Below are positions 1,318-63,920 of a stretch of DNA of 64,000 bases, in pieces (the stretch's first letter is position 1; each line of letters starts with the position of its first letter). The DNA comes from Mesaphorura yosii. Its lineage: Eukaryota; Arthropoda; Collembola; Poduromorpha; Tullbergiidae. A model generated the notes under the pieces. It was not told the origin of the DNA. It did not search any database and was given only the letters and a program-made list of their open reading frames with translations. The translations under genes and the position numbers were made by a program. Location: positions 1-64,000 of the forward strand of contig WIXG01000212.1 in NCBI GenBank assembly GCA_009869945.1. Direction: 5' to 3'.

Positions 1318-4300
1318 TCATCGAAATTCTGGTTTGAGCCTCCAAAGCCGCTTTCCCTCGACTTGGCGATGTGTGCAGAGTTGTTCCAGCATTTTCTTGA
1401 AGAGCGGCGACTTTTGAGGAGGTAGTTTACTCCCGAACTCTGCGATCAGCTCCTCTGTCGTGGCTTGGCCGTCAATCATGGCTCGGAATGCGATGAACTC
1501 CCGAATGTCACGGAGGAGTTCAATGTTCTCGTCATTCACAGGAGCGGGCGGGCCCTCATTGTCCTCGTCCTCGTCATCTTCGCCGGGCGGACGTGCTGCA
1601 GGAACTGCAGCTGCACGCACTGGATGTGGGTTGCGCGCGCGAATCATCGCAATCAAATCGGCGGACGTCAGTGTTTGAGCCGAAACCGAAGTGGACGGCG
1701 TGAGCTGTGGGTGGCTAAAGAATGATTCCGTTTCCTCATTCTTACTTTGTGAAGCTGGTGCAGGCGCAGGCTCCTTGCGCGCCTGTCTCTTCTGCCCGAA
1801 TCTTGGCAAAGACCTGAAAACGTCAATGAAAAGATAAGGCATATTGTAAGTCGAAATGCAAGCGGCTAGCCAACTTTGATTGAGGAAACGATTGTAGACG
1901 ACATACTTTTTCTTTGGAGGCGGTGTCGCCGTATTAATTTCTCCATGTGCTCCGGTCCACGTAACTCTGCCGGACTCTGCACTCCAGCATTGACTCCGGG
2001 ACTTCTTCAGCGCCTTCACTGCGTCTATCGCCACTTGCTCCGCCTCTCGCTCCACCAGCAAATAATCCGACTCACCCTGGTCTACAATCTTGTCATGGCG
2101 GAGTGCAGCTTCGACGCCTGACTTCTTAAACAGTTTGCTGAGGACGTACTCATCCTGGCTTTTGTTTGCGTCCGCGTCCTTGCTTGGTCCTGCAACGGGT
2201 TCTTCTGCTGCCGCCTCCGTGTCTGCGAGCGGTCGCTGCTTGACGAGGTGTGGAATTCGCTTCAGTTTGCCAGACGCTTTCTCCGTGGGTTTCTTCATCT
2301 TGACCCTGGAACCTGTCCCAGCAAAGATGGCTTCTGACTCTGTACCCTTTGTCCCTTCGTTGTACGTGAATAGTTCGAGCATATCGTTGCTTTTGAAGAA
2401 ACGCCTTTGCTTCGGGTTCTTCAGCACTCGGTTGGTGAGGAATTGCTTGAAGATTTGACGGTGATAAATCTTCTCTTCGACTGTCCCCGCAGTGATTAGT
2501 CTGTAAATTGTCACTTGTCTCTCCTGCCCAATACGCCAAGCCCGTTCTCGTGCTTGGACGTCAGTGCTCGGATTCCAGTCGGGATCGAAGAGAATCACTC
2601 GATTTGCACCAGTCAAATTGACTCCGAGGCCACCGACTCGAGTCGTCAGCAGGAATACGAATATACCAGGATCCTGACGAGTCAAAAGCAGCAGTAATTA
2701 ATTAAGATTAGCGACTACTAATTTCGACCTTAATCTGGGTCAGGGCTTAGGTTCAAGTTCATACTTGATTGAATTTTGCGATGAGTGGCTGCCGAGTTGC
2801 GATGGGAGTCCCTCCGTCGAGTCTCAGGTACGAATATTTCTCCTTTCGAACAAAACTTTCCAAGATGCACAGCATCTGAAAATTGGTAAGTCGCAAATTA
2901 AGGTAAGGCACTAATTTTGCAATTATCACAGGTTCTTAATCCCGCATTACTTGCATACCTGTCGACTCTGTGTGAAAAGAAGTACTTTATGCTGCTGTTC
3001 CTTCCACAGCTTGAGCAAAGTCTTTATCACAATCATCTTCCCCGACTTGGTCCAGTGTCCAAACACAGTTTCACTCTCGTCAGAACCTGCGCCAGTGGAT
3101 GTTGGTGTCGATTCGCTCTTCTCGTTGTAAGCAGACGCACACGATTGCACTTTGTTCTTTGGAATTCTGCTTTCGTCCCTCTGTTTGAATACTTTCGGGC
3201 CTCCATCAAACAAATGAGGATGGTTGCATATTTTGCGGAGGTTGATCAGGCCCACGAACACGTTGGCGTCCCCTTTCACTATGTTGTTGATTTCTTTGGA
3301 GCTGATGTAACCCAGGTAGAGTTCTTTCTGTGCGGGAGTCAGCTTGCAGAAAAGAACCTGCTCATTCTTGGCTGGCAGGTTCAGATGCTTGTTGACGTCG
3401 GTCTTCATTCTTCGCAGCAAATATGGACTGATGATATTTCGGAGCATCGTAGCGCACTTGTAGGCGGCAGCGACTTGAATCTCCGACGCGTTCGAATATC
3501 CGCCTTGGGTGATTGGAACTGCGAACTGTTCAATAAACGTCGGCAGAGTGCCCAGCTTCCCAGGATGGATGAAGTCAAACAAGGACCACAACTCCTTCAG
3601 ATTGTTCTGCAAAGGCGAACCTGAGAGAAGGAGCCGATGAGGAGTTGCAATCTGCTTCAACGCCAACGTCACTTGTGCGTCAGGATTCCTCATTTTGTGC
3701 CCTTCGTCAACGATCACGTAGTGCCACTTGTGTTTTAGGATTTCGTTCTGGTTGTTTACAACTCCAGCGTAAGTCGTGATCAGAATCCCTTTGGATGTTT
3801 GTATGTTTCGAATGAGCACTTGCTTGTAACCCTTGAATGACCCAGACTCGTGAAGAATTGCAACGCGAAGAGGTGGCCACCAAACGTGGAATTCCTTCAC
3901 CCACTGGTGCATTACGGTGGCGGGGCACACGATTAAAGTCGGACCAAGCCCGCGATGCCTGCGAAACAAATGAATCTGCCTGTTGAACTTGTTGCCAAAT
4001 TAAGTTTATACATTCAGATTTAGTTACGTTACTGACTCAGTAAATCTTCCGAGTAAATCTGAGCACACGAGTCCGGCCAAGAATGCGATGACTTGGATTG
4101 TTTTGCCCAACCCCATTTCATCACCCAAAATTCCACCCGTTCTCTGCTGGTGTAGCTCCCACAACCACTTCACGCCTTCTCGCTGGTAACTTTTCCACAA
4201 ACAGACACCACAATGTCAACTTACCAATCAATTAATAAGCTCTTATGTTGTTGGTTGGCTGTTCTGCTCACCTGTACAGGTTTTCCCACAAATACTTTGG

Positions 4301-6553: not shown

Positions 6554-8211
6554 TTAGGCGGTGGTGTTCTTCGTCATGGCCACGAGAGCATTGGCAGCGC
6601 GGAGGGCGTTGACACGTCCGTATCCGAAAGTGTAGTTGGGCCAGGTGCTGTCGCTGACTCCGGAGCAGACTTGGCCAGAGAAGGAGAGGTTGCGGTCAGA
6701 GTTGTTCTGGAGGATGGTCTTCACGGTGGCGTAGCTCACGTTGCGGTTCCTTCCCCTCAGCAGACCAATGAGACCAGCTGCAGAACAGAAGAAACGGACA
6801 ATTAGTAAATTATATCCAAATTAGCTTATTTGACTACTTTGACTTAATTTGCTTAATGAGCTTACCGACATGAGGGCAGGCCATTGAAGTTCCAGACATG
6901 GTAGCGTATGCAGTGTTGGAGGTGTGGCCGGCGGAGCGGATGGAGTTACCTGGAGCCGAGACCTGTGGCTTCTGTGCACCGCTGTTGGCTGGTCCACGGG
7001 AGCTAAAGGAAGCGATGGCGTCAGTGCTCGTGGTTGCACCCACACCGATGACATCAGCGGCGCTGTCGGCTGGCGAGCCAGTCGTGCGGCAACTGGGGCC
7101 GCTGTTAGCGTTGGCGAAGACTGGAATGACACCGGCAGAGTGCCAGGCACGGATGGTGCTGTCGTACCTTCAGAATGAAAAGAGTTGCATTAGAATTTAA
7201 CAACTGGATAGTTTTAGATGCCGGTGAGCAATTACAAAAGTGAAAACTTACCAGTTGGATCCGCCAGTGCCTCCCCAGGAGTTGCTAGATACATCTGGGG
7301 CCAAGCTGCAGTCTGGGTTGGTTCCTTGGTAGTTGTGTGGGCAAGCCATGAACTGACCACAGGCGATCAGGGCAGCGTTGGTTCCAGAGCCGTTATCTTG
7401 TAGACCCTTGCATGAAATCCACTTTGCTCCTGGTGCGACCCCGATGCCGCCACTACCAATAAGAAGATTTTTAGTACAATACCAGAATGAGTTTGTGAGA
7501 ATAAGATTGTCGAATTTACCTTCCAGCAATCGTTCCGGTGACATGTGTGCCGTGACCATGACCGTCTCCTGGGTTTTGGGTTCTTGTGTACGGGTTGTAC
7601 CACGCATGGTTTCCGCCTCTGTACCCAGCGCTGATCAAATTGTGAGTGTATCTGGCTCCGGTGTCGATAACCCCGATGACAGCGCCGGTGCCCTGGCCAA
7701 TAGCGGCCCATGCCTGTTCGGTCTGGATCTTGTCAATACCCCATTCAGCCTGGATGGTGCTGTCCTCTGGGTCGGCCTCTGGCTCCTGAAGGTACACGAT
7801 TTCTTCTTCGTCGATGGCGGAGACATCGTCCATCTCGGCGAGGGCTTCGATCAGGTATCTGTCGGCGCCCTGGATGTAGATCTGATTGGAAATCCAGAAG
7901 CTCTCGACGTTGATGGCGAAGAAACGCGGGGATTTGAGCATTTCGAGGACGGCGGCCTGCGACTTGTCGGCGTGGGCCTTGAGTGAAGTGTAGACAGCAG
8001 TGGCTCTGTCGCCACGGGAGGCGAATGAGCGAGCGTCGACCTGGTCGAGAACGGCGTACGTGTCTTCCTTCATCGAGACAAGGATGTTTACGCGCTGCTT
8101 CGTCTCGAGTGTGCGGACAAGCAGCCGGTTGATCTTGGCGTTGTTGGCTGGAGCAGCCAAGACACTGGCGAGGATCGCCATGAGGCAGAGAGAGACGACG
8201 AGTCGGGCCAT
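6554..8211 (-). CDS. Secreted subtilisin-like serine protease, copy 1 (family S8)
   Basis: Preproenzyme of 472 residues in four exons: 8211-7520, 7452-7252, 7167-6866 and 6777-6554 (ATG at 8209-8211, TAA at 6554-6556). Residues 1-20 are a clear signal peptide ending in LAAP. About 25-145 form an inhibitor-type prodomain, and the peptidase unit follows. The catalytic triad is complete: Asp183 in VIGVIDTGA, His220 in GHGTHVTG and Ser392 in GTSMACPHV, with the oxyanion Asn288 in SSNSWGG. The domain layout resembles bacillopeptidase F-like S8 proteases found in arthropods and bacteria. It should be an extracellular, probably digestive endopeptidase; tissue and substrate are inference. It is head-to-tail with a broken copy and a second intact copy to its right, and shares exon sizes 692, 201 and 302 with the latter. 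The likely poly(A) signal is ATTAAA on the minus strand (TTTAAT at 6461-6466). Confidence 0.93.
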
Positions 8212-8310
8212 GTCGGAGTCACAGCGAGCAAGGGTAGGGGCAAAGGCAAGGGCAAGAGCGCAAAGTCAACCGAAAAGTTGAACTGAAGCGAGAACCGGGC
8301 TGGCTCCTGA

Positions 8311-10086: not shown

Positions 10087-11755
10087 TTAAGCCTTTGTCA
10101 TGGCGCGGAGGGCGTTAACTGATCGGAGGGCGTTGACACGTCCGTACCCGAAAGTGTAGTTGGGCCAGGTGCTGTCACCGACTCCGTTGCAGACTTGGCC
10201 AGAGAAGGACAAGTTGCGGTCGGCGTTGTCCTGAAGGATGTTCTTGATGGCTTCGTAGCTCAAGTTGGGGCGACCAGATCTCAGGAGAGCGACAAGACCA
10301 GCTGCAAAAAAAGGCGAGGCGATCAGTTTTCACGACTCATGATTCTGGCTGGCTGTCTCATTAAAATGCGGGACTGACTTTTGTAATCTACTTACCGACA
10401 TGAGGAGTGGCCATGGATGTTCCAGACATAGTGGCGTAGGCGGTGTCGCTGGCGATACCGGCGGAGCGGACTTGGTTACCTGGAGCAGCGACCTGTGGCT
10501 TCTGAATGCCAGAGTTGGCTGGTCCACGGGAGCTGAAGGAGGCGATAGCGTCGGTGTCGGTGGTGGCGGCAACAGCAATGACATCAGCGCCAGAGTCACC
10601 TGGTGAAAGGGTACTGCGGCAAGTGGGGCCATTATTTCCCATTGCAATAACTGGGATAACACCAGCGGCGTGCCATGCGCGGATGACGGGGTCGAACCTG
10701 TGTATGTCAATTAGCATTAGAAAATGGTGTCACCTGTGCTTATACGGCTTATAGCAAAGCAACGGTGAGGGCTCACCAGGTCTGTCCACCGGTACCTCCC
10801 CAGGAGTTGCTGGAGACATCTGGAGCCTGGTTGCAGTCTGGGTTGTTTCCTTGATAGTCGTGGGGGCAGGCGATGAATTCACCGCAGGCGATTAGAGCGG
10901 CGTTGGTTCCAGAGCCGTTATCCTGGAGACCCTTGCAGGAAATCCACTGTGCTCCTGGTGCGACTCCAATACCACCACTTCGAATGGCAGAATGTTAGAT
11001 TAGAACGTAAAAACTTAGAAGAACGTAAAAACGTAAGAATTTTGCTAGTGATTAATTGATTACCTTCCAGCTGTAGTTCCGGTGACGTGTGTGCCGTGAC
11101 CATGACCGTCTCCTGGGTTTTGAGTTCTGCCGTATGGGTTGAACCACGCCCGGGTGCCACCTCTGTAGTTGGAGGAGATCAAATTGTGGGTGTGTCTCGC
11201 TCCAGTGTCGATGACTCCAATAACAGCGCCATTTCCTTGAGAGCCAAGAGCAGCCCATGCCTGTTCGGTCTGGATCTTGTCAACTCCCCATTCGGCTTGA
11301 ATCGTCATTTGTGGGTCGGCGTCAACCTCTGGAAGGTGGACAATTTCTTCCTCCTCGATGGCGGAGACGTCATCCATCTCGGCGAGGGAGTCGATCAGGT
11401 ATCTGTCAGCGCCCTGGATGTAGATCTGGTTGGTGATCCAGAAGCTCTGGACGGTGATAGCGAAGAAGCGTGGGGATTTGAGCATTTCGAGGACGGCACC
11501 CTGCGACTTGGCGGCGAGAGCCTTGAGCGAGGTGTACACGGCAGTGGCGCGCTCTCCGCGGGTGGCGAAAGAGCGGGTCTGAACCTGAGCGAGGGTGGCT
11601 TCGGTGCCCTCGTTCATGGAGACGAGGATGTTGACACGCTGCTTGGTCTCGAGTGTCTTGACCAGGAGCCTGTTGATCTTCGTGTTGTTGGCTGGAGCAG
11701 CCAAGACACTGGCGAGGATCGCCATGAGGCAGAGAGAGACGACGAGTCGGGCCAT
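10087..11755 (-). CDS. Secreted subtilisin-like serine protease, copy 2 (family S8)
   Basis: Preproenzyme of 469 residues in four exons: 11755-11064, 10977-10777, 10697-10396 and 10301-10087 (ATG at 11753-11755, TAA at 10087-10089). Intron positions and phases are identical to those of copy 1. The signal peptide is identical over its first 24 residues, followed by a prodomain and a peptidase unit. The triad is complete: Asp183 in VIGVIDTGA, His220 in GHGTHVTG and Ser392 in GTSMATPHV, with the SSNSWGG oxyanion motif. It differs from copy 1 in the prodomain (NEGTEATLAQ), at the residue after the nucleophile motif (Thr for Cys) and in a shorter C-terminus (RAMTKA). It is a secreted endopeptidase from a recent tandem duplication; different substrate preference is possible but not shown. 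Confidence 0.93.
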
Positions 11756-11822
11756 TTTGGAGGTTAGTGAACTAAGTCGACCAAAAAGTGGACTGAGTGA
11801 AGAGCAAGAAGTTTGCTCTTGA

Positions 11823-11829
11823 TTTTATA
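11823..11829 (-). promoter_or_regulatory. TATA box of protease copy 2
   Basis: TATAAAA on the minus strand, about 70 bases upstream of the ATG at 11755, leaving room for a leader of about 40 bases. It is the best core promoter element in the window and is conserved in position with the box of copy 1. Confidence 0.7.
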
Positions 11830-56000: not shown

Positions 56001-59000
56001 TGATTTTCGGCGGATATTTCCTGAATTTGTGATTTAGGCCCGGTCGTGCTGGCGTAAATGCAACTGGTCGCGGTGTGCTCTCCATGCAAGGCTTGAGTCA
56101 TGGAGTGGTTCGAGTTGATCAAGAGAATTCACTGACATCGCTCACACTTCAGGACTGTGGGCAAGTTATGAATGCCGGTAAGTCTGACAAACTTGTGGAA
56201 TCGGAATTGCGGAGGTACGAGCGTATAGTATCAGAGTATTAACGTGAAGTTTGTTGTTGCAAGATGTTGCGTCAGACAGTTTTATTGGTTTTCACAAGAT
56301 TTATTACCTCTTTATTGAAATTCGGTCTTCGTCGATCTGATATGACAGCAAGTAAGATTTACGGCGTGATTTGCATTTGAATTTGCAGCTGTGATAGTCG
56401 TTGTACGCATGGATGGACCACCCTTCATTTGCAAAACTGACGAAGTCGGCGAAATCTGCGTGCACTCCTCAGCCACTGGCTCTCATTACTGGGGACTCCA
56501 AGGATTGACTAATAACACGTTCAAAGTGCAGCCAATGCAGCCCGATGGAACCGTAATGCCAGACTCGGAGTACGTGCGAAGTGGATTGCTTGGATTTTTG
56601 GGACCGGTGAGAATCTTATGAGCTTGCTGTTGCTCGAATGCGGGATTTAACAATTTAACTGGATTTTGGTTTAGGGTGGACTCGTCTTCGTCTGTGGCTC
56701 TCGGAATGGGTTGATGAGTGTCAGCGGAAGAAAACACAACGCCGACGATATCATCGCAACTGTGCTCGCTGTGGAACCCATGAAATTCATTTACCGTGGA
56801 AGAATTGCGGTGTTCAGCATCAAAGTGCTCCGTGATGAGAGAATCTGTGTCATTGCAGAACAACGACCGGATTGCAGCGAAGAAGAGGTACGTGACCCGA
56901 AGCTGCCACCACCACAAATTATCAAATGTAACTTGAATTTCGTTTGCATTGCAAAATGTATGATTTTGATTGGCGCAGAGTTTCCAGTGGATGTCTCGCG
57001 TGCTGCAAGCCGTTGATTCAATTCATCAAGTGGGCATTTACTGTTTGGTTCTGGTGAATCCAAACTGTCTGGTAGGTTTCAAGATACGGAGTAATGTTTT
57101 ATCTACAACGTTTACGAGTCGAGATTACAAAGGGAGTTTGACCTTTGACCCACTCTTGTCTCTTCAGGCCAAGACCCCACTTGGAGGAATTCACTTGTCG
57201 GAGACCAAGCGGAAATTCCTGGAAGGAACACTGCACCCAGCCAACGTATTGATGTGTCCTCACACTTGCGTCACGAATCTTCCGAAACGTAAGTTTAATT
57301 CACTTCTACACTAATCTAACTGAAATTGAGAAACTGAAAGACTTTCCTGAAGAACAAAACTTTACAAAACAACGCATACAGTTCGCGGCAATTTGATCAT
57401 TTCAAATCATTTCATTAGCACGGGAAATCCACTCTGACATCGGGCCGGCGAGCGTGATGGTCGGAAACATCGTGCAGGGCAATCGTCTGGCGACGGCTCA
57501 TGGTCGAGATCTCGGAGTGGTCGACGAAGAGTCGGACTCCGCGAAAAAGGTAACCACGCTCGACGTTCGCACGAGGCAGGCCGGAAAGCTTGATTAATGG
57601 CTCCGGATCATCGCTATTCGCCGCTGCATGTAGGCCCGTGATTTATTCATACTTCTGTTGCCTGCTTCACAGTATCAATTTATCTCTGAGATATTAAAAT
57701 GGCGCTCCACGTCAACTGCTGATCACGTCATCTTCACGCTGTTAAACTCGAAGGGAACTGCGACGATGACGCTCACATGCTCGCAGCTTCACAAGAGAGC
57801 CGAGCGCGTGGCCTGTCTGCTCCTGGAACGAGCAAAGATCAACACCGGCGATCATTGCGCTCTCGTCTATCCACCAGGGTAACTTTCTCTTACTTTTTTA
57901 GCATACGCACGCACCACTATGCGATGCACATGATTTATGAACACGGAAATTAAACGTCTGAAAGAATGCACTACGCAACTACGCACACATCATTCAACCT
58001 GAAATGAGACTGACTGTATTTATTTTTCAGGCTGGATCTCATTGCTGCTTTTTACGGCTGTTTATACGCGGGTGAGTAAACATGATGATGTATCTGGCTG
58101 GATGAAACTAAATAATGGAGAGAATTCTCATTAAATGTGCGGTTTTGGGGTTTCCCTCATTTTAGGTGCTGTTCCGGTGACCGTTCGACCACCTCACCCA
58201 CAAAACCTACAAACCACGCTTCCGACAGTGCGCATGATTGCAGAAGTCAGCAAATCCGTGCTTATCCTGTCAACGCAAAATGTCATCAAGCTCCTCAAGT
58301 CGAAGGTAACCTAAGCCAAAAGCCAATTTACCGCGTGCTCGTGCTTCAGTTCAATTTATTGTGCCTGGGTCCTAAAATGGTCGTGATATTATTTTAGGAG
58401 GCGAGCAACGTTGTTGATATTAAATCATGGCCACTGACACTCGACACTGATGATTTACCCAAGAAGAAGCTGCCAAACCTGTACAGAGCTCCAACGGCAG
58501 AAATGATTGCATATCTCGACTTCAGGTGAGTTTTCTTAACTTTACTGTTTCTTTTGGTGTCAATTTTGGGCTGGGTTGATTTTCTAATTCGTGACGCAAT
58601 TTATTTCTGCAGTGTGTCCACAACCGGAATGCTGGCTGGTATCAAAATGTCGCACGCTGCCGTTACTTCACTGTGCAGATCCATGAAACTCGCTTGTGAA
58701 TTGTACCCTTCTCGACACGTGGCGCTCTGCTTGGATCCGTACTGCGGGCTGGGGCTCGTTCTCTGGAGTCTCAGCAGCGTTTACTCGGGGCACCATTCGA
58801 TACTCATTCCACCTTCTGAAGTCGAAGCGAACCCCGCGTTGTGGCTGAGTGCAGTGAGCCAGTACAAAGTCCGAGACACTTTCTGCTCCTACGGCGTCAT
58901 GGAACTCTGCACCAAAGGACTGGGCTCTTCCGTCAACCTGCTCAAGCAGCGAAACGTGAATCTAGCGTGTGTCCGAACATGCGTCGTCGTTGCGGAGGAA

Positions 59001-60470
59001 AGACCGCGGATTAATCTGACAAACAGCTTTTCGAAATTGTTCTCAGCGCTGGGGCTCAGCCCGCGAGCCGTGTCGACTTCCTTTGGCTGCCGTGTCAATG
59101 TCGCCATTTGTCTTCAAGTAAGTGAACAACAATGGACAATGAAAAGAGCAAAAGCATTAACACATTTTTTGCTAATGAATAATGTATCGAGTTGCCCCGC
59201 CTGTTAAGTAGCGTATAAAAGCGAGTTTCCTTACACTGCTACCACTGCACAAAAGTGGAAGCGTGTTCGCTTACTGCGTGAATGAGCCCGGGTTCAAATC
59301 CGGACGGCAACTCTTTATTTGTTGCATGCGAAATAAGATATGATGACTTGTTATACCGCCCCAGTCTGAAATTAACTGTTGAGAGGTATAAACCTGATCT
59401 TATTTTTGCTGCAGCGGACATACATCTTCATGAACGCTGATGCGTGCCCACCTTTCTGTGTCTAACACTGAATTGCTTGTGTTTAACTTCGCAGGGAGCT
59501 TCTAGTCCAGAACCTTCCACCGTATACGTAGATCTGAGGGCACTCCGCAACGATCGAGTGACATTGGTCGAAAGGGGAAGCCCACACAGCCTGTGCGTCA
59601 TGGAGTCAGGAAAACTGCTGCCTGGTTGCAAAGTGATCATTGCAAATCCGGAGACGAAAGGGCAGTGTGGAGATTCACATTTGGGAGAGGTAAATAAATC
59701 CTCAATTTCAATCATTTTTATGCTGTAATGAGCAGTAATTGAGATTAATTCATATATTATTTCCAATTTCCTTTCTTCAGATTTGGGTTCAGTCCCCTCA
59801 CAATGCAAGTGGATATTTCACGATATTTGGCGATGAGAGCAGTTACGCGGATCATTTCAATGCGCGGCTGGTCACCGGAAACACGGGTGAAGTTTACGCG
59901 AGAACTGGATATTTGGGATTCCTCCGAAGAACGGAAAATGTCCAGTCAGATGGAGGTAAATTCCCAATTTCCCGAGTTTAATTACAAAATCTGAAGCCTC
60001 AGCATCGGAATTTCGTTGATTTAGAATTGCATGACGCGGTATTCGTCGTTGGCGCCTTGGATGAAACGATCATGCTACGAGGAATGCGGTATCACCCAAT
60101 CGACATCGAAAACAGCATTCTACGATGCCACAAAAAAATTTCTGAATGGTAAAAAAAAATTAATACCCCAATGTTCTAATTTTTTCATAAAATTAATTAA
60201 ATGCTCATTTATTGCAGTGCTGTGTTCACGTGGACGAATTTGTTGGTCGTTGTCGTCGAGCTGGAAGGCAATGAGAGCGAAGCTCTTGACGTCGTCCCAC
60301 TCGTGACAAATTGCGTCCTGGAAGATCATTTCCTGGTTGTTGGAGTGGTTGTGGTTGTTGATCCTGGTGTTGTTCCAATAAACTCACGCGGCGAGAAGCA
60401 GCGAATGCATTTACGCGATGGATTCTTGGCCGATCAGTTAGATCCCATCTTTGTAGCTTACAACATGTAA
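20071..60470 (+). CDS. Dip2: Disco-interacting protein 2 (DIP2), complete, 27 exons
   Basis: Exons: 20071-20158, 44056-44130, 45061-45156, 48637-48768, 51479-52150, 53202-53521, 53889-54012, 54183-54385, 54457-54856, 54924-54961, 55074-55125, 55700-55934, 56038-56177, 56389-56606, 56675-56887, 56979-57071, 57168-57288, 57419-57549, 57673-57878, 58031-58071, 58166-58305, 58398-58525, 58613-59117, 59495-59689, 59781-59955, 60025-60148, 60218-60470. Phases close to 1705 residues. The start has the DMAP1-binding module (LAELELELSEG, then GDITQKGYEKKRSRILA). Exon 5 encodes a 224-residue Ser/Pro/Gln-rich linker. Two fatty-acyl-AMP-ligase-like domains follow, about 462-1117 and 1118-1705, with FAFYGCL-type and GDRVALVFPN segments, MSHAAVTSLCRS, AEERPRI and RTGYLGFLRR. 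The end, RDGFLADQLDPIFVAYNM, is that of all DIP2s. DIP2 acts in neuronal morphology and in diacylglycerol/lipid homeostasis in other species. Introns are short except the first four and some near exon 12. Confidence 0.97.
20690..20990. repeat. Candidate old interspersed repeat with a hairpin end
   Basis: This block differs in texture from its surroundings, being less A/T- and CA/TG-rich. It holds a phrase (AAATCCGATCAACAGTTCCC) typical of dispersed repeats and ends in a perfect 12-bp inverted repeat: TATTATAATTGC at 20945-20956 and its complement at 20959-20970, with a 2-base loop. I see no second copy in this window, so the call rests on style alone. Confidence 0.2.
27671..27686. repeat. Alternating CGCGTACGCGTACGC tract
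   Basis: A short self-complementary purine-pyrimidine alternating run inside Dip2 intron 1. A relative (GGTACGCGTACGCG) occurs near 24928-24940. Such words could form Z-DNA or cruciforms; no function is implied. Confidence 0.5.
29273..31708 (+). CDS. Large basic low-complexity ORF nested in Dip2 intron 1
   Basis: An uninterrupted 811-codon frame from ATG to TAG; I do not recognise it. Its length makes chance implausible and its codons look coding. It starts MKALTWDKFRRLMGGKKK and is Ser/Arg-rich. A central segment is the most globular and probably the conserved part: RSFWWTHQKAGS, RDSGYSYGG, NGWVWGNLANKMFGRGQK and then GYFQRTNLRRSSSKGKKVKL. Ser/Gly and His-rich patches flank it. Many RxxS sites suggest a kinase-regulated scaffold, which is inference. 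A strong donor (ATGG|GTAAGAAG, intron start at 31683) lies nine codons before the stop, so the frame may really be an exon 29273-31682 ending in phase 1. It could then join the ORF at 40263 or Dip2 exon 2 at 44056, both of which accept phase 1. Confidence 0.6.
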   Translation: MKALTWDKFRRLMGGKKKADDGKSPEIDSAKFQRSYSFKRASVRKSAKRSQVQSQNSHSQPTNDSRGASSPMTSCAQPRINQNPHGHGHMQRVPSQPDLDSHLPTRCHVRVRQRQRVPFDESPLSPPPAMAAAPAPVSSTSAHHEKWTRLESPPSEIDIEDDDERTNWILRRQREEQLQAQEHLTQQFSQIAIGRRARIQRLLSQEAELELEGDHDQDSELVGCVTRQSTGDSALSRMSVHSCSSAGAGSGSGPGAGMGHSRIYQRSNLNVSSSLASSHQHASKPNSVVAARSRSRLSMSALNLLDESVEYTQDMPLITATSLSSEGNRRSSRMNASTDSVNFEDRKCVSALDSGCFLSNSNSNSGKSSADIPSASVSAGAGAGLGPLGGSRLNLSKYDDEDPPRSFWWTHQKAGSTLTTSSAASRDSGYSYGGRAPSRNGWVWGNLANKMFGRGQKPKGPTLSVSKEGYFQRTNLRRSSSKGKKVKLATRSSGRLRKTPSGRRRKITPTPSQTEGQEVLSAGANATACSPSFENFAQDDGTIDSSNNSIYQSYVPLMRRDQLHFSGSSTALFQQQVELVLPERRKSKSSSSEDARETHGAAAAATRSAAPTRFEMAEIRLPRLKCPSQSPTSPNPNPCCLVNHNLAIANLDRYGHNYGYHANADHHGHNETENCDESWDQVGCCEKMQREMQLQAEDRDRDGSSSHTGVNASAASSNHLRNKSSSNNRVRVIVTKSSLLRAKQSHTLSRRRRQARMALANASANLHAINNQQQAAVKNSDLFVLPRPNLSLGLSMSTSSSKMGKKRPGFG
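40263..41122 (+). CDS. Second nested ORF in Dip2 intron 1, Ser/Gly/His-rich
   Basis: A 285-codon frame from ATG 40265 to TAA 41120-41122; I do not recognise it. It opens with Gly/Ser-rich sequence, then His/Val repeats (HVHMSS, HSHVHAHALGG), an Arg/Glu run (REREREREREP), a Pro-rich stretch, and a more structured tail with DNWVDLEELYRWLQELEDTK and two cysteine pairs (SCNC and CPLC). The tail might be a small metal-binding or helical interaction module. An AG at 40261-40262 could be an acceptor placing the frame in phase 1 after the exon ending at 31682, which would make one nested gene of about 1089 residues; the pyrimidine tract there is weak. It could equally be an independent intronless gene. 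Confidence 0.5.
46073..46090 (+). repeat. GATAA tandem repeat
   Basis: GATAAGATAAGATAAGA gives three overlapping GATA-factor core sites within Dip2 intron 3. This may be a microsatellite or a homotypic GATA site cluster. Confidence 0.45.
47170..47188 (+). repeat. CAG microsatellite
   Basis: About six CAG units in Dip2 intron 3, in no open frame of note. Confidence 0.6.
48769..51478 (+). other. Dip2 intron 4, 2.7 kb, no gene seen
   Basis: Donor gtacga at 48769, acceptor tgttgcag ending 51478. Nothing in it looks coding or like an RNA gene. T-rich and simple-sequence patches dominate. Confidence 0.65.
52151..53201 (+). other. Dip2 intron 5, 1.05 kb, no gene seen
   Basis: Donor gtaagt immediately after the Ser/Pro/Gln-rich exon 5, acceptor tttatttgcag ending 53201. 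No further features are recognised. Confidence 0.65.
59189..59313 (+). other. tRNA-like element in Dip2 intron 23
   Basis: A perfect 8-bp inverted repeat, GAGTTGCC (59189-59196) and GGCAACTC (59306-59313), bounds 125 bases that contain tRNA parts in order. There is an A-box-like TGCACAAAAGTGG (59245-59257). Next is a 5-bp anticodon-type stem TTCGC/GTGAA (59266-59270 and 59278-59282) around the 7-base loop TTACTGC (anticodon would be ACT). A B-box GGTTCAAATCC (59291-59301) lies in a T-arm with a mismatch, and a T-rich run follows the 3' arm. The 5' acceptor arm is about 50 bases too far from the D-like arm. It is therefore not a normal tRNA: either a decayed tRNA with an insertion, or a tRNA-derived SINE remnant. 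Confidence 0.4.
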
Positions 60471-61758: not shown

Positions 61759-63920
61759 ATGTTCATCTTTCGATCCAATCGAGTCGGTGTCGGCGTGTCA
61801 TCATCGCCATCACCTTCACCACTCGCAGGCGCAGCTGTCGCTGGTGTGGCTGCAGGCCACGGCCACGATAAGGCAAGAGGAGAACTGCAAGTAAACGTAG
61901 AGAACGCTAACGCCGAAGCAGCAGCAGCAATCGTCGATGTTGACGATGCCGATACAAGGAAGGTCCCCACTGTTGAACACGGGCTTTGGACTCCCTCAAG
62001 GTTCGGAACTCTCATCAGATGCAGGCAATGGCGTGTGTTGGGCAGTGGTTTCCGGTTCATACTCGATGGGAGGCTGATGCTTGGCTCGAGCACGTCCTTC
62101 TTCTGGATAAGTTTGGCGATTTACCTGATTTCGATCGTGGTCGTATTCATCTACTTCGAGTAAGCACTTGATTGTGATTGGCAGCGTTTTTCATTGGATA
62201 CTGATAACAAGCCAGAGCTTGTAGCAAGTTCGTATTTCATGTTGCAGGACGACGGCTTTCGATGACTGGGCGAGTGTTCTTGTGGCGCTGATAGGCATCC
62301 TGACGATTTACAACCTGGCGGCAGTGCCTTGCATGGATCCCGGCTGTATTCCGAAGGCTTCCGAAGAGGAGCGTCTTAATAATCTGATTCGATGTATGAA
62401 TCCTACTTATATTCATGCTCCACTTGCCACCTGCAGGGCTTACTGTTCTCATAGATCAACTAGAAAAGGAGCCAGGCGCTGACAACGTCGAGAAGCTGAT
62501 GACCATACACGGCAAAGAGGAGCTCTGTGATTTCTGCACCGCCTGCTGTCACTTCAAACCCAAACGAACAATTCACTGCGAAATGTGTGGATTCTGTATC
62601 GGTACGACGCGTAGGCCGTATGTAGATTCTGTAGAGTGCTTAATTGCAATTTTTACTTGCTTAATAACTCCAGATCGGCTGAGTTGCCACTGCTTCCTCT
62701 TCGGCACATGCATCGGGCGAAGGAATTACGGGCACTGTGTCAAGTTCCTCTTCTTCGTCAACATTCTGGTCATGACGATGTTCACCGTCTCCATTTACAA
62801 TCTTGTGACACGTAAGGCGAAGGCGTGGGCTTAAACAAAGCAAAGGCTTAAACGAGCACAAATTAGTCACAAATTCGCCACGCCAGAAGCCAATTTATAA
62901 TTTGCCATTTGCAGTGTCAAATCAGTTCGGATTCGCGTATGCCGCCACCGCATCACCGACGACCTTCGTCCTGCTGACCGGATTGCTGTTTCCGGTACCC
63001 TTCGGACTTTGTCTGATGCCATTTGAATTGGTCCAGCATTTCGTATTTTCGTTGCTGGATTTGTCGTACATCGAATCCGTAAGTATAGAATGAGAAAATT
63101 CAGTTGAAACCAAATGACGTCTCTCAAGGTTCAATAATGCGTAAAATCTATTTAAGGTTCATTTGAAAACTGGCTACTTCTGCTGTCTCAAGGGAAAAAC
63201 GTTCGGTGACGGAATTCGTTTCGTAGCTGCCAATTTCTATCACTGGGTGATAGCCAAACCTCCAGAAAGCCTTCTCGGTAAGTCGGCGACAAAGAAATAA
63301 CTTACACCTGGATTATGGTGTTAACATCTTTTTCAAAATGAGTATATAAAATGCAATTTTTTTTTTTATTTTTACATTCAGCGCCGCGAAGCTACGTTAC
63401 AGTTCATGCAATTCCACGCCAAGAAAGCAAGAAATTCGCTGGACCCACGCCCAAAACGCCCATGCGCCTACCCGCCAGCAGTAGGCTTTGGATTTGCCGA
63501 CGAGGATTCGACGTGGGCGTCGGCGTCAAAAGCAACGCCTTAGCAGTAGACTCCAATCGCAGCCGCAGCACCCATGCAGTGACAATGACAGCCGCAGCAG
63601 CAGGCAAGTCCAACGCTAAAGCTGCCTCCAGTGTCAGCGCGAATCTGAACCCGAATTCATTTGTCGACGAACGCGCTCCGAAGACGCGCGGCGTGTACAC
63701 ACTTCCAAGTCATCGCCGATCGAAGTCCATGCGCACCAGCGCTCAGAGTCTGAAAAAGAAATTCACGTTCGAGTTCGTTCGGAAATCCTTTTCAAACATC
63801 AGCAGCCGAGTTCCAGCCCTCCGGACAGAGGCAGCGGAGCCCGCACCGACACCAGCGCAAATTAGGCAGCAACAGCATGAGTTGGCAGCGGCAGCGGGCC
63901 AGAATCTTCGTAACATTTAG
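61759..63920 (+). CDS. DHHC-family (ZDHHC9/14/18-type) protein with degenerate SCHC signature
   Basis: Seven exons close in phase to 557 residues: 61759-62159, 62248-62393, 62437-62601, 62674-62811, 62915-63078, 63157-63277, 63382-63920. The layout is that of S-palmitoyltransferases. The pre-TM1 segment with ILDGRLMLG and the later DPGCIPK resemble ZDHHC9/14/18 and fly approximated. TM1 is about 112-133 and TM2 about 142-160; the zinc-finger domain is about 213-260, TM3 about 262-283, and TM4 lies in exon 5. Zinc ligands are kept: Cys216, Cys219, His229, Cys230, Cys233, Cys236, His243, Cys250. The acceptor Cys244 and the CIGRRNY string remain, but DHHC reads Ser241-Cys242-His243-Cys244 and the following PW is FL. 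The TTxE motif after TM4 is also not clear. The tail is Ala/Ser-rich and basic. It probably sits in Golgi, endosomal or plasma membrane; enzymatic activity is doubtful. Confidence 0.88.

Follow-up and report, generated by a model that had tools for sequence, protein, structure and literature searches.

A DHHC-family gene of Mesaphorura yosii with SCHC in place of the catalytic tetrad: a possible pseudo-palmitoyltransferase of the ZDHHC9/14/18 type

What can a DHHC-family protein still do when the Asp and the first His of its catalytic tetrad are gone? A gene of the collembolan Mesaphorura yosii (contig WIXG01000212.1, 61759-63920, plus strand) raises this question. It has SCHC (codons AGT TGC CAC TGC, 62682..62693, plus strand, in exon 4) at the place of DHHC, and we refer to it and its product as the SCHC gene and the SCHC protein. 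The window is the whole stretch of DNA that was analyzed, 64,000 nucleotides from the start of the contig. In DHHC20, as described in PMC8059564, Asp153 polarises His154 and His154 deprotonates Cys156. PMC4192757, which compared members from yeast, worm, fly and human, found the Asp absolutely conserved, and the natural departures from DHHC given there are DHYC (Akr1, Akr2 and Pfa5), DQHC (ZDHHC13), Arg at the second position (CG17197) and DHHS (GABPI). Among the papers listed in searches of mostly open-access literature, we found no report of a member of the SCHC type; that is, one that has lost Asp and His and kept the Cys and the zinc ligands.

The SCHC gene is modelled as seven exons that encode 557 residues (1671 coding bases). 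Exon 1 (61759..62159) has the start codon, a low-complexity N-terminus and the first predicted transmembrane segment, TM1 (residues 113-131), and exon 2 (62248..62393) has TM2 and the DPG motif (residues 164-166). Exon 3 (62437..62601) encodes the initial portion of the cysteine-rich domain, with CxxC, HC and CxxC. Exon 4 (62674..62811) contains the SCHC motif, the last zinc Cys, GRRNY and TM3, so that 62437-62811 runs from the start of exon 3 to the end of exon 4. Exon 5 (62915..63078) contains TM4, exon 6 (63157..63277) a region whose match to the PaCCT/CCM region was set by hand on an exon end, and exon 7 (63382..63920) a long C-terminal tail and the stop. All are on the plus strand. All six introns are GT-AG and there are no internal stops or frameshifts, in agreement with a preliminary description of this DNA that reported an intact frame with good splice sites. 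That description also placed SCHC where DHHC is expected across the exon 3/4 junction, and the joined frame, CDFCTACCHFKPKRTIHCEMCGFCIDRLSCHCFLFGTCIGRRNY, confirms this. At 43 bases, intron 2 is short. It would grow to 61 bases with an in-frame alternative acceptor 18 bases into exon 3 (start at 62455), a change that leaves the SCHC motif unaffected. Intron 3 (62602-62673, plus strand; 72 bases) is in frame and has no stop, and a transcript retaining it would encode 24 extra residues, placed where the cysteine-rich domain is split between exons 3 and 4.

Other genes are recognizable elsewhere in the window. Two similar open frames on the minus strand (7519-8265 and 11063-11824) share a signal-peptide-like stretch and both contain the start of a subtilase (Peptidase_S8) domain, and the pair appears to be a local duplication. 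Frames of an SNF2-family helicase (1321-3999, minus strand; PF00176 E 2.1e-69, Helicase_C E 2.8e-12), which we take to be ERCC6-like, are also present. Upstream from the SCHC gene is a frame with an AMP-binding domain (58530-59204, plus strand; E 2.8e-11) that is presumably DIP2-like.

Splicing in other ways did not restore DHHC. We considered 39 GT-AG joins around the motif, the modelled one among them, with donors in 62540-62679, acceptors in 62560-62739 and introns of more than 40 bases. None gave DHHC or HHC, and we therefore rejected restoration by other splicing. One join gave DCHC, with inserted residues and with the C-x4-D spacing broken. Neither DHH nor D[HQRYC]HC was found in the three plus-strand frames from 61701 to about 63980. 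By the codon table, AGT is at least two base changes away from any Asp codon and TGC at least two away from any His codon, which makes at least four in total, so a single base error does not explain SCHC. A second copy or allele was also rejected, as a DNA search of the M. yosii genome returned the window alone.

The SCHC protein belongs to the DHHC family. It matched Pfam DHHC (PF01529) with 58.5 bits (cut-off 28.7) and no other Pfam family above cut-off. Among solved structures it matched human ZDHHC9 best (E 2.3e-19); ZDHHC5, ERF2 and DHHC20 came next. Hydropathy windows gave hydrophobic segments at residues 113-131, 142-160, 260-278 and 300-318, as expected from the four membrane helices predicted earlier. 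Members of the family have four or more transmembrane helices, the domain lying between the second and the third, and the predicted arrangement fits this. DPG, which some members lack, and GRRNY are both present. The spacing of the cysteine-rich domain is C216-x2-C219-x9-H229-C230-x2-C233-x2-C236-x4-S241-C242-H243-C244-x5-C250, and the stretch from C216 to C250 aligned without gaps to ZDHHC9, ZDHHC5, ERF2 and DHHC20, bearing out the gapless signature noted before. By alignment, all eight predicted zinc-ligand positions (C216, C219, H229, C230, C233, C236, H243 and C250), which we presume to be the zinc-binding residues of this protein, are present. The acceptor Cys (Cys244) is present too, and the proposal that zinc ligands and acceptor are retained holds at nine of nine positions. 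The DHHC fold described in PMC8059564 has two zinc sites, each with three Cys and one His.

Within the tetrad, Ser and Cys have replaced Asp and the first His. The preliminary description held that only these catalytic residues were lost, apart from the Pro-Trp after the acceptor Cys, whose loss we also saw in the alignment to solved family members. Within the tetrad this is correct, but more is missing. TTxE, a motif that not every family member has, is absent from exon 5 and from the whole 557-residue protein, the Asn preceding the last zinc Cys is lost, and so are the C-terminal cysteines for pairing with GCP16. A C-terminal cysteine motif (CCM) is needed by the ZDHHC9 group to bind GCP16, as reported in PMC10076531. 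The SCHC protein has NFYHWVIAKPPESLL where C54, an intact ZDHHC9/14/18-like gene of M. yosii, has NFWHILCGPTSPSAI; the two were aligned by hand on the exon end that they share, because automatic alignment leaves gaps there. The lost cysteines include the one most needed for GCP16 binding. The NF-aromatic-H of the PaCCT region is in the SCHC protein as in C54.

We compared the SCHC gene to C54, which keeps DHHC and matches ZDHHC9 with E 4.8e-89 and 48% identity. The SCHC protein is 26% identical to ZDHHC9. Five of the six introns of the SCHC gene have counterparts in C54 of equal phase and, judged by eye, at the same position. Near the end of TM1, a phase 2 intron splits the codon that follows F. 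Three are in phase 1: one ahead of the motif, directly behind C-V/I, one within the Leu codon that precedes S-N/S-K, and one behind SLL/SAI. The remaining one, in phase 0, follows YIES/TTNED. Alignment is poor in the region of YIES/TTNED and SLL/SAI, and for SLL/SAI the C54 side is an exon end alone. The sixth, between exons 2 and 3, is a phase 1 intron at 19 residues counted from the Asp of DPG; it is absent from C54 and is found in another locus, C62. Given the introns shared with C54, a splicing error is an unlikely source of SCHC. The proposed affinity to ZDHHC9/14/18 is favored by these introns and by the best solved match.

A tree built from eight sequences (198 columns), however, placed the SCHC protein, C62 and C256 outside the group of C54, ZDHHC9, ZDHHC5, C36 and Erf2 (support 95.5/88), with no resolved order among the three. 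Their branches were 1.68 substitutions per site for the SCHC protein, 1.32 for C256 (a model joined across a gap) and 1.24 for C62. It is possible that the placement outside the C54-ZDHHC9 group reflects long-branch attraction.

There are at least 15 DHHC loci in the M. yosii genome. DHHC is kept in 12 of the 15 (C36, C2, C54, C10, C26, C70, C355, C290, C92, C348, C62 and C256), and the tetrad departs from it in three: the SCHC gene, C35 (CHHC) and C459 (DQHL). The ZDHHC9-like loci seen were C54, C62, C256 and the SCHC gene, and the SCHC gene alone among them has lost both Asp and His. C62 resembles the SCHC gene in its exon 2/3 intron. Unlike the SCHC protein, it keeps DHHC (DHHCPVFGGC); as modelled it ends shortly past TM4, and it is 22% identical to the SCHC protein.

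Several of the other loci are themselves unusual. In C35 (L013 1582-1593), presumably ZDHHC16-like, Cys replaces Asp (CNRCVLCMCHHC, then PWVNNC); the motif is otherwise canonical, PW is kept, and the Pfam score is 79.6 bits. C459 (46915-47188, minus strand; L016) reads CVRRQDQHLMLGGTCVGQRNF across a splice and has lost the acceptor Cys and the first His. RDHHC is kept across a splice in C348 (L018 1385-1530), where an expected upstream Cys is Phe (CRTCQSFIEGRDHHC). C256 (L029 3224-3700) keeps RFDHHC; by hand there was no in-frame GT-AG join to DACVGIRNF, and this locus is probably broken or misassembled after the DHHC exon. The genome also has three Erf4-family matches. One of these (C367, 63544-63882, plus strand; L055 1045-1383) is in a 251-residue open frame and matches Erf4/GOLGA7 with E 8.9e-21; its product could be a partner of divergent ZDHHC9-like proteins. 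We take the other two to be GOLGA7-like (C386) and CHIC-like (C73).

We looked for signs of constraint in the SCHC gene. In the stretches that align, 35 columns are invariant in C54, ZDHHC9, ZDHHC5 and Erf2, and the SCHC protein keeps 22 of them: all nine of those for zinc ligands and acceptor Cys and 13 of the 26 others (Fisher P 0.013, from a small sample of non-independent columns). In simulated neutral drift from C54 to 53% residue identity (a rough value, 26% over 48% identity to ZDHHC9), 2 of 1000 lineages were free of stops, which is all that the simulation counts. Starting from the SCHC gene itself (500 runs), the frame was open in 28% at 5% residue change and in 7% at 10%. The simulations thus disfavor long unconstrained decay and leave room for a recent death; the constraint may have acted either earlier or later than the loss of Asp-His. 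The earlier statement that this is not simple decay stands for long-standing decay and not for a recent death.

Base composition was in line with a coding sequence. GC3 was 0.59 overall (0.56 in exon 3, 0.76 in exon 4 and 0.65 in the two together), and exon 4 had a GC of 0.37 at codon positions 1 and 2 as against its GC3 of 0.76. Introns of the gene had a GC of 0.27-0.44, and a GC3 above the intron GC points to coding. Codon-usage scores were non-discriminating; in the true frame they hardly differed from zero, and in two of the seven exons (3 and 6) they fell below another frame. Viral contigs gave five pattern matches, and none was a relative. As to the source of the DNA, 66 Chitin_bind_4 matches in the genome indicate an arthropod, and 4 PBP_GOBP matches (best E 1.8e-5) gave nothing narrower. 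A nematode origin was rejected; Col_cuticle_N had 0 matches, but it had none in any control genome either, so these 0 matches do not demonstrate absence.

Published mutants bear on what the SCHC protein could do. According to a review (PMC8107437), mutation of Asp-His in Akr2 abolished both autoacylation and transfer, and Erf2 with a mutated first His no longer acylated Ras. When this His is changed to Ala, Erf2 is described as retaining autopalmitoylation and losing transfer, and ZDHHC13 (DQHC) as retaining activity (PMC8059564). Swf1 and Pfa4 with the acceptor Cys changed to Arg lost activity only partly (PMC8107437). Given the mechanism in DHHC20 and the Akr2 and Erf2 mutants, acyl transfer by the SCHC protein is unlikely. 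Cys244 is kept, unlike the acceptor Cys of GABPI, so the protein could hold an acyl chain, though it is doubtful whether Cys244 becomes acylated.

These results can be read in more than one way. A wrong splice choice or an assembly error might mask a normal DHHC. The 43-base intron 2 would fit such an artefact, as would intron 3, since it is open and in frame and the form that retains it is open too. However, four base changes would be required, none of the 39 joins gives DHHC, the intron before the motif agrees with C54 in place and phase, and the genome search found no second copy. We consider an artefact very improbable. Early gene death, in which a duplicate lost catalysis recently and is now drifting or unexpressed, is a better candidate and still an unlikely one. 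The fast branch, the loss of most catalytic and partner motifs, the related locus C256 that is apparently broken past its DHHC exon, and the fraction of frames left open by short neutral drift are all consistent with it. The 1671 coding bases with good splice sites and neither stop nor frameshift, the preferential keeping of zinc ligands, and the GC3 above intron GC argue against it.

Just as unlikely, or very slightly less so, is a residual enzyme or acyl holder, in which Cys244 is acylated slowly or spontaneously and transfer is lost or altered. Such a protein could be an acyl-loaded decoy or sensor, or a slow enzyme that uses another general base. Cys244, the zinc His and DPG are there for it, and it has parallels in the first-His mutant of Erf2 and in ZDHHC13 (PMC8059564) and in the partial activity of Swf1 and Pfa4 (PMC8107437). 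C35 is otherwise canonical, so loss of Asp may be tolerated in M. yosii. On the other side, Asp and His are lost jointly, a combination reported dead in Akr2 (PMC8107437), and the protein is also without TTxE, PW and the Asn that precedes the last zinc Cys. We regard as quite improbable a working S-acyl carrier or transferase without Asp-His, in which Cys242 or the zinc-finger environment would activate Cys244, in a lineage with recurrent Asp loss (C35).

The explanation that we favor, and hold to be somewhat probable, is that the SCHC protein is a folded pseudo-palmitoyltransferase of the ZDHHC9/14/18 type that acts by binding, as GABPI does. In this view a duplicate of the ZDHHC9/14/18 (fly approximated) type, with introns and a fast rate of evolution, would have become a pseudo-palmitoyltransferase. 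Its two-zinc domain would still fold and sit at the membrane, and Cys244, without proper activation, would transfer no acyl chain to substrates. By analogy with GABPI, the protein would bind a client or partner membrane protein and pilot or retain it. That zinc scaffold, helices and frame have all been retained suggests a folded, binding membrane protein, and the PAT-independent functions of approximated speak for the same reading. As counterpoints, selection on Cys244 may continue, and much else has drifted (a branch of 1.68; 22 of 35 invariant columns kept). The activity left in ZDHHC13, in the first-His mutant of Erf2, and in Swf1 and Pfa4 without the Cys, as well as the non-discriminating codon-usage scores, also count against it. 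A pseudoenzyme that serves as a scaffold or dominant regulator had been proposed. By sequence a pseudoenzyme is likely, but a regulator that competes for GCP16 is less likely because the CCM cysteines are gone, and we rejected GCP16 competition as the mechanism for this reason, though three Erf4-family matches exist.

We compared the SCHC protein to known members that it resembles. Fly GABPI (CG17257) is described as a non-enzymatic DHHC-family pilot and activator of the glycosyltransferase beta4GalNAcTB (PMC6258472, PMC9374236); it too is a DHHC-family membrane protein judged non-enzymatic, as we propose for the SCHC protein. GABPI has Ser in place of the acceptor Cys (PMC4192757), whereas the SCHC protein keeps Cys244 and has lost Asp and the first His instead. 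In addition, GABPI is described as six-pass (PMC6258472, PMC9374236) and the SCHC protein has four predicted segments. ZDHHC13, CG17197 and Akr1/Akr2/Pfa5 are, like the SCHC protein, non-DHHC with the Cys kept, but all of them keep the Asp that it has lost (PMC4192757).

ZDHHC9/14/18, approximated and yeast Erf2 have DPG, the zinc ligands and four helices in common with the SCHC protein. The SCHC protein differs from ZDHHC9/14/18 in being without DHHC, TTxE and the CCM cysteines, and in its 26% identity compared to 48% for C54. Approximated (app), the fly protein most similar to ZDHHC9/14/18, is reported to have PAT-independent functions (PMC9374236). The same source describes nine DHHC genes of the fly as testis-only, five of these being apparent recent duplicates. 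These testis-only genes offer a parallel for the SCHC gene, not evidence.

By sequence comparison, loss of Asp and His with the Cys and all zinc ligands kept appears to be an unusual variant, and dead DHHC proteins already have precedent. The SCHC protein joins the few odd or dead members already known and opens no new class. At least one family-wide survey, as described in PMC5359973, dropped matches without the DHHC motif before analysis; with surveys filtered by motif, members like the SCHC protein may be undercounted. A natural SCHC member would separate structure from catalysis in the DHHC family, and this protein would be a ready-made means to ask which DHHC functions need no catalysis.
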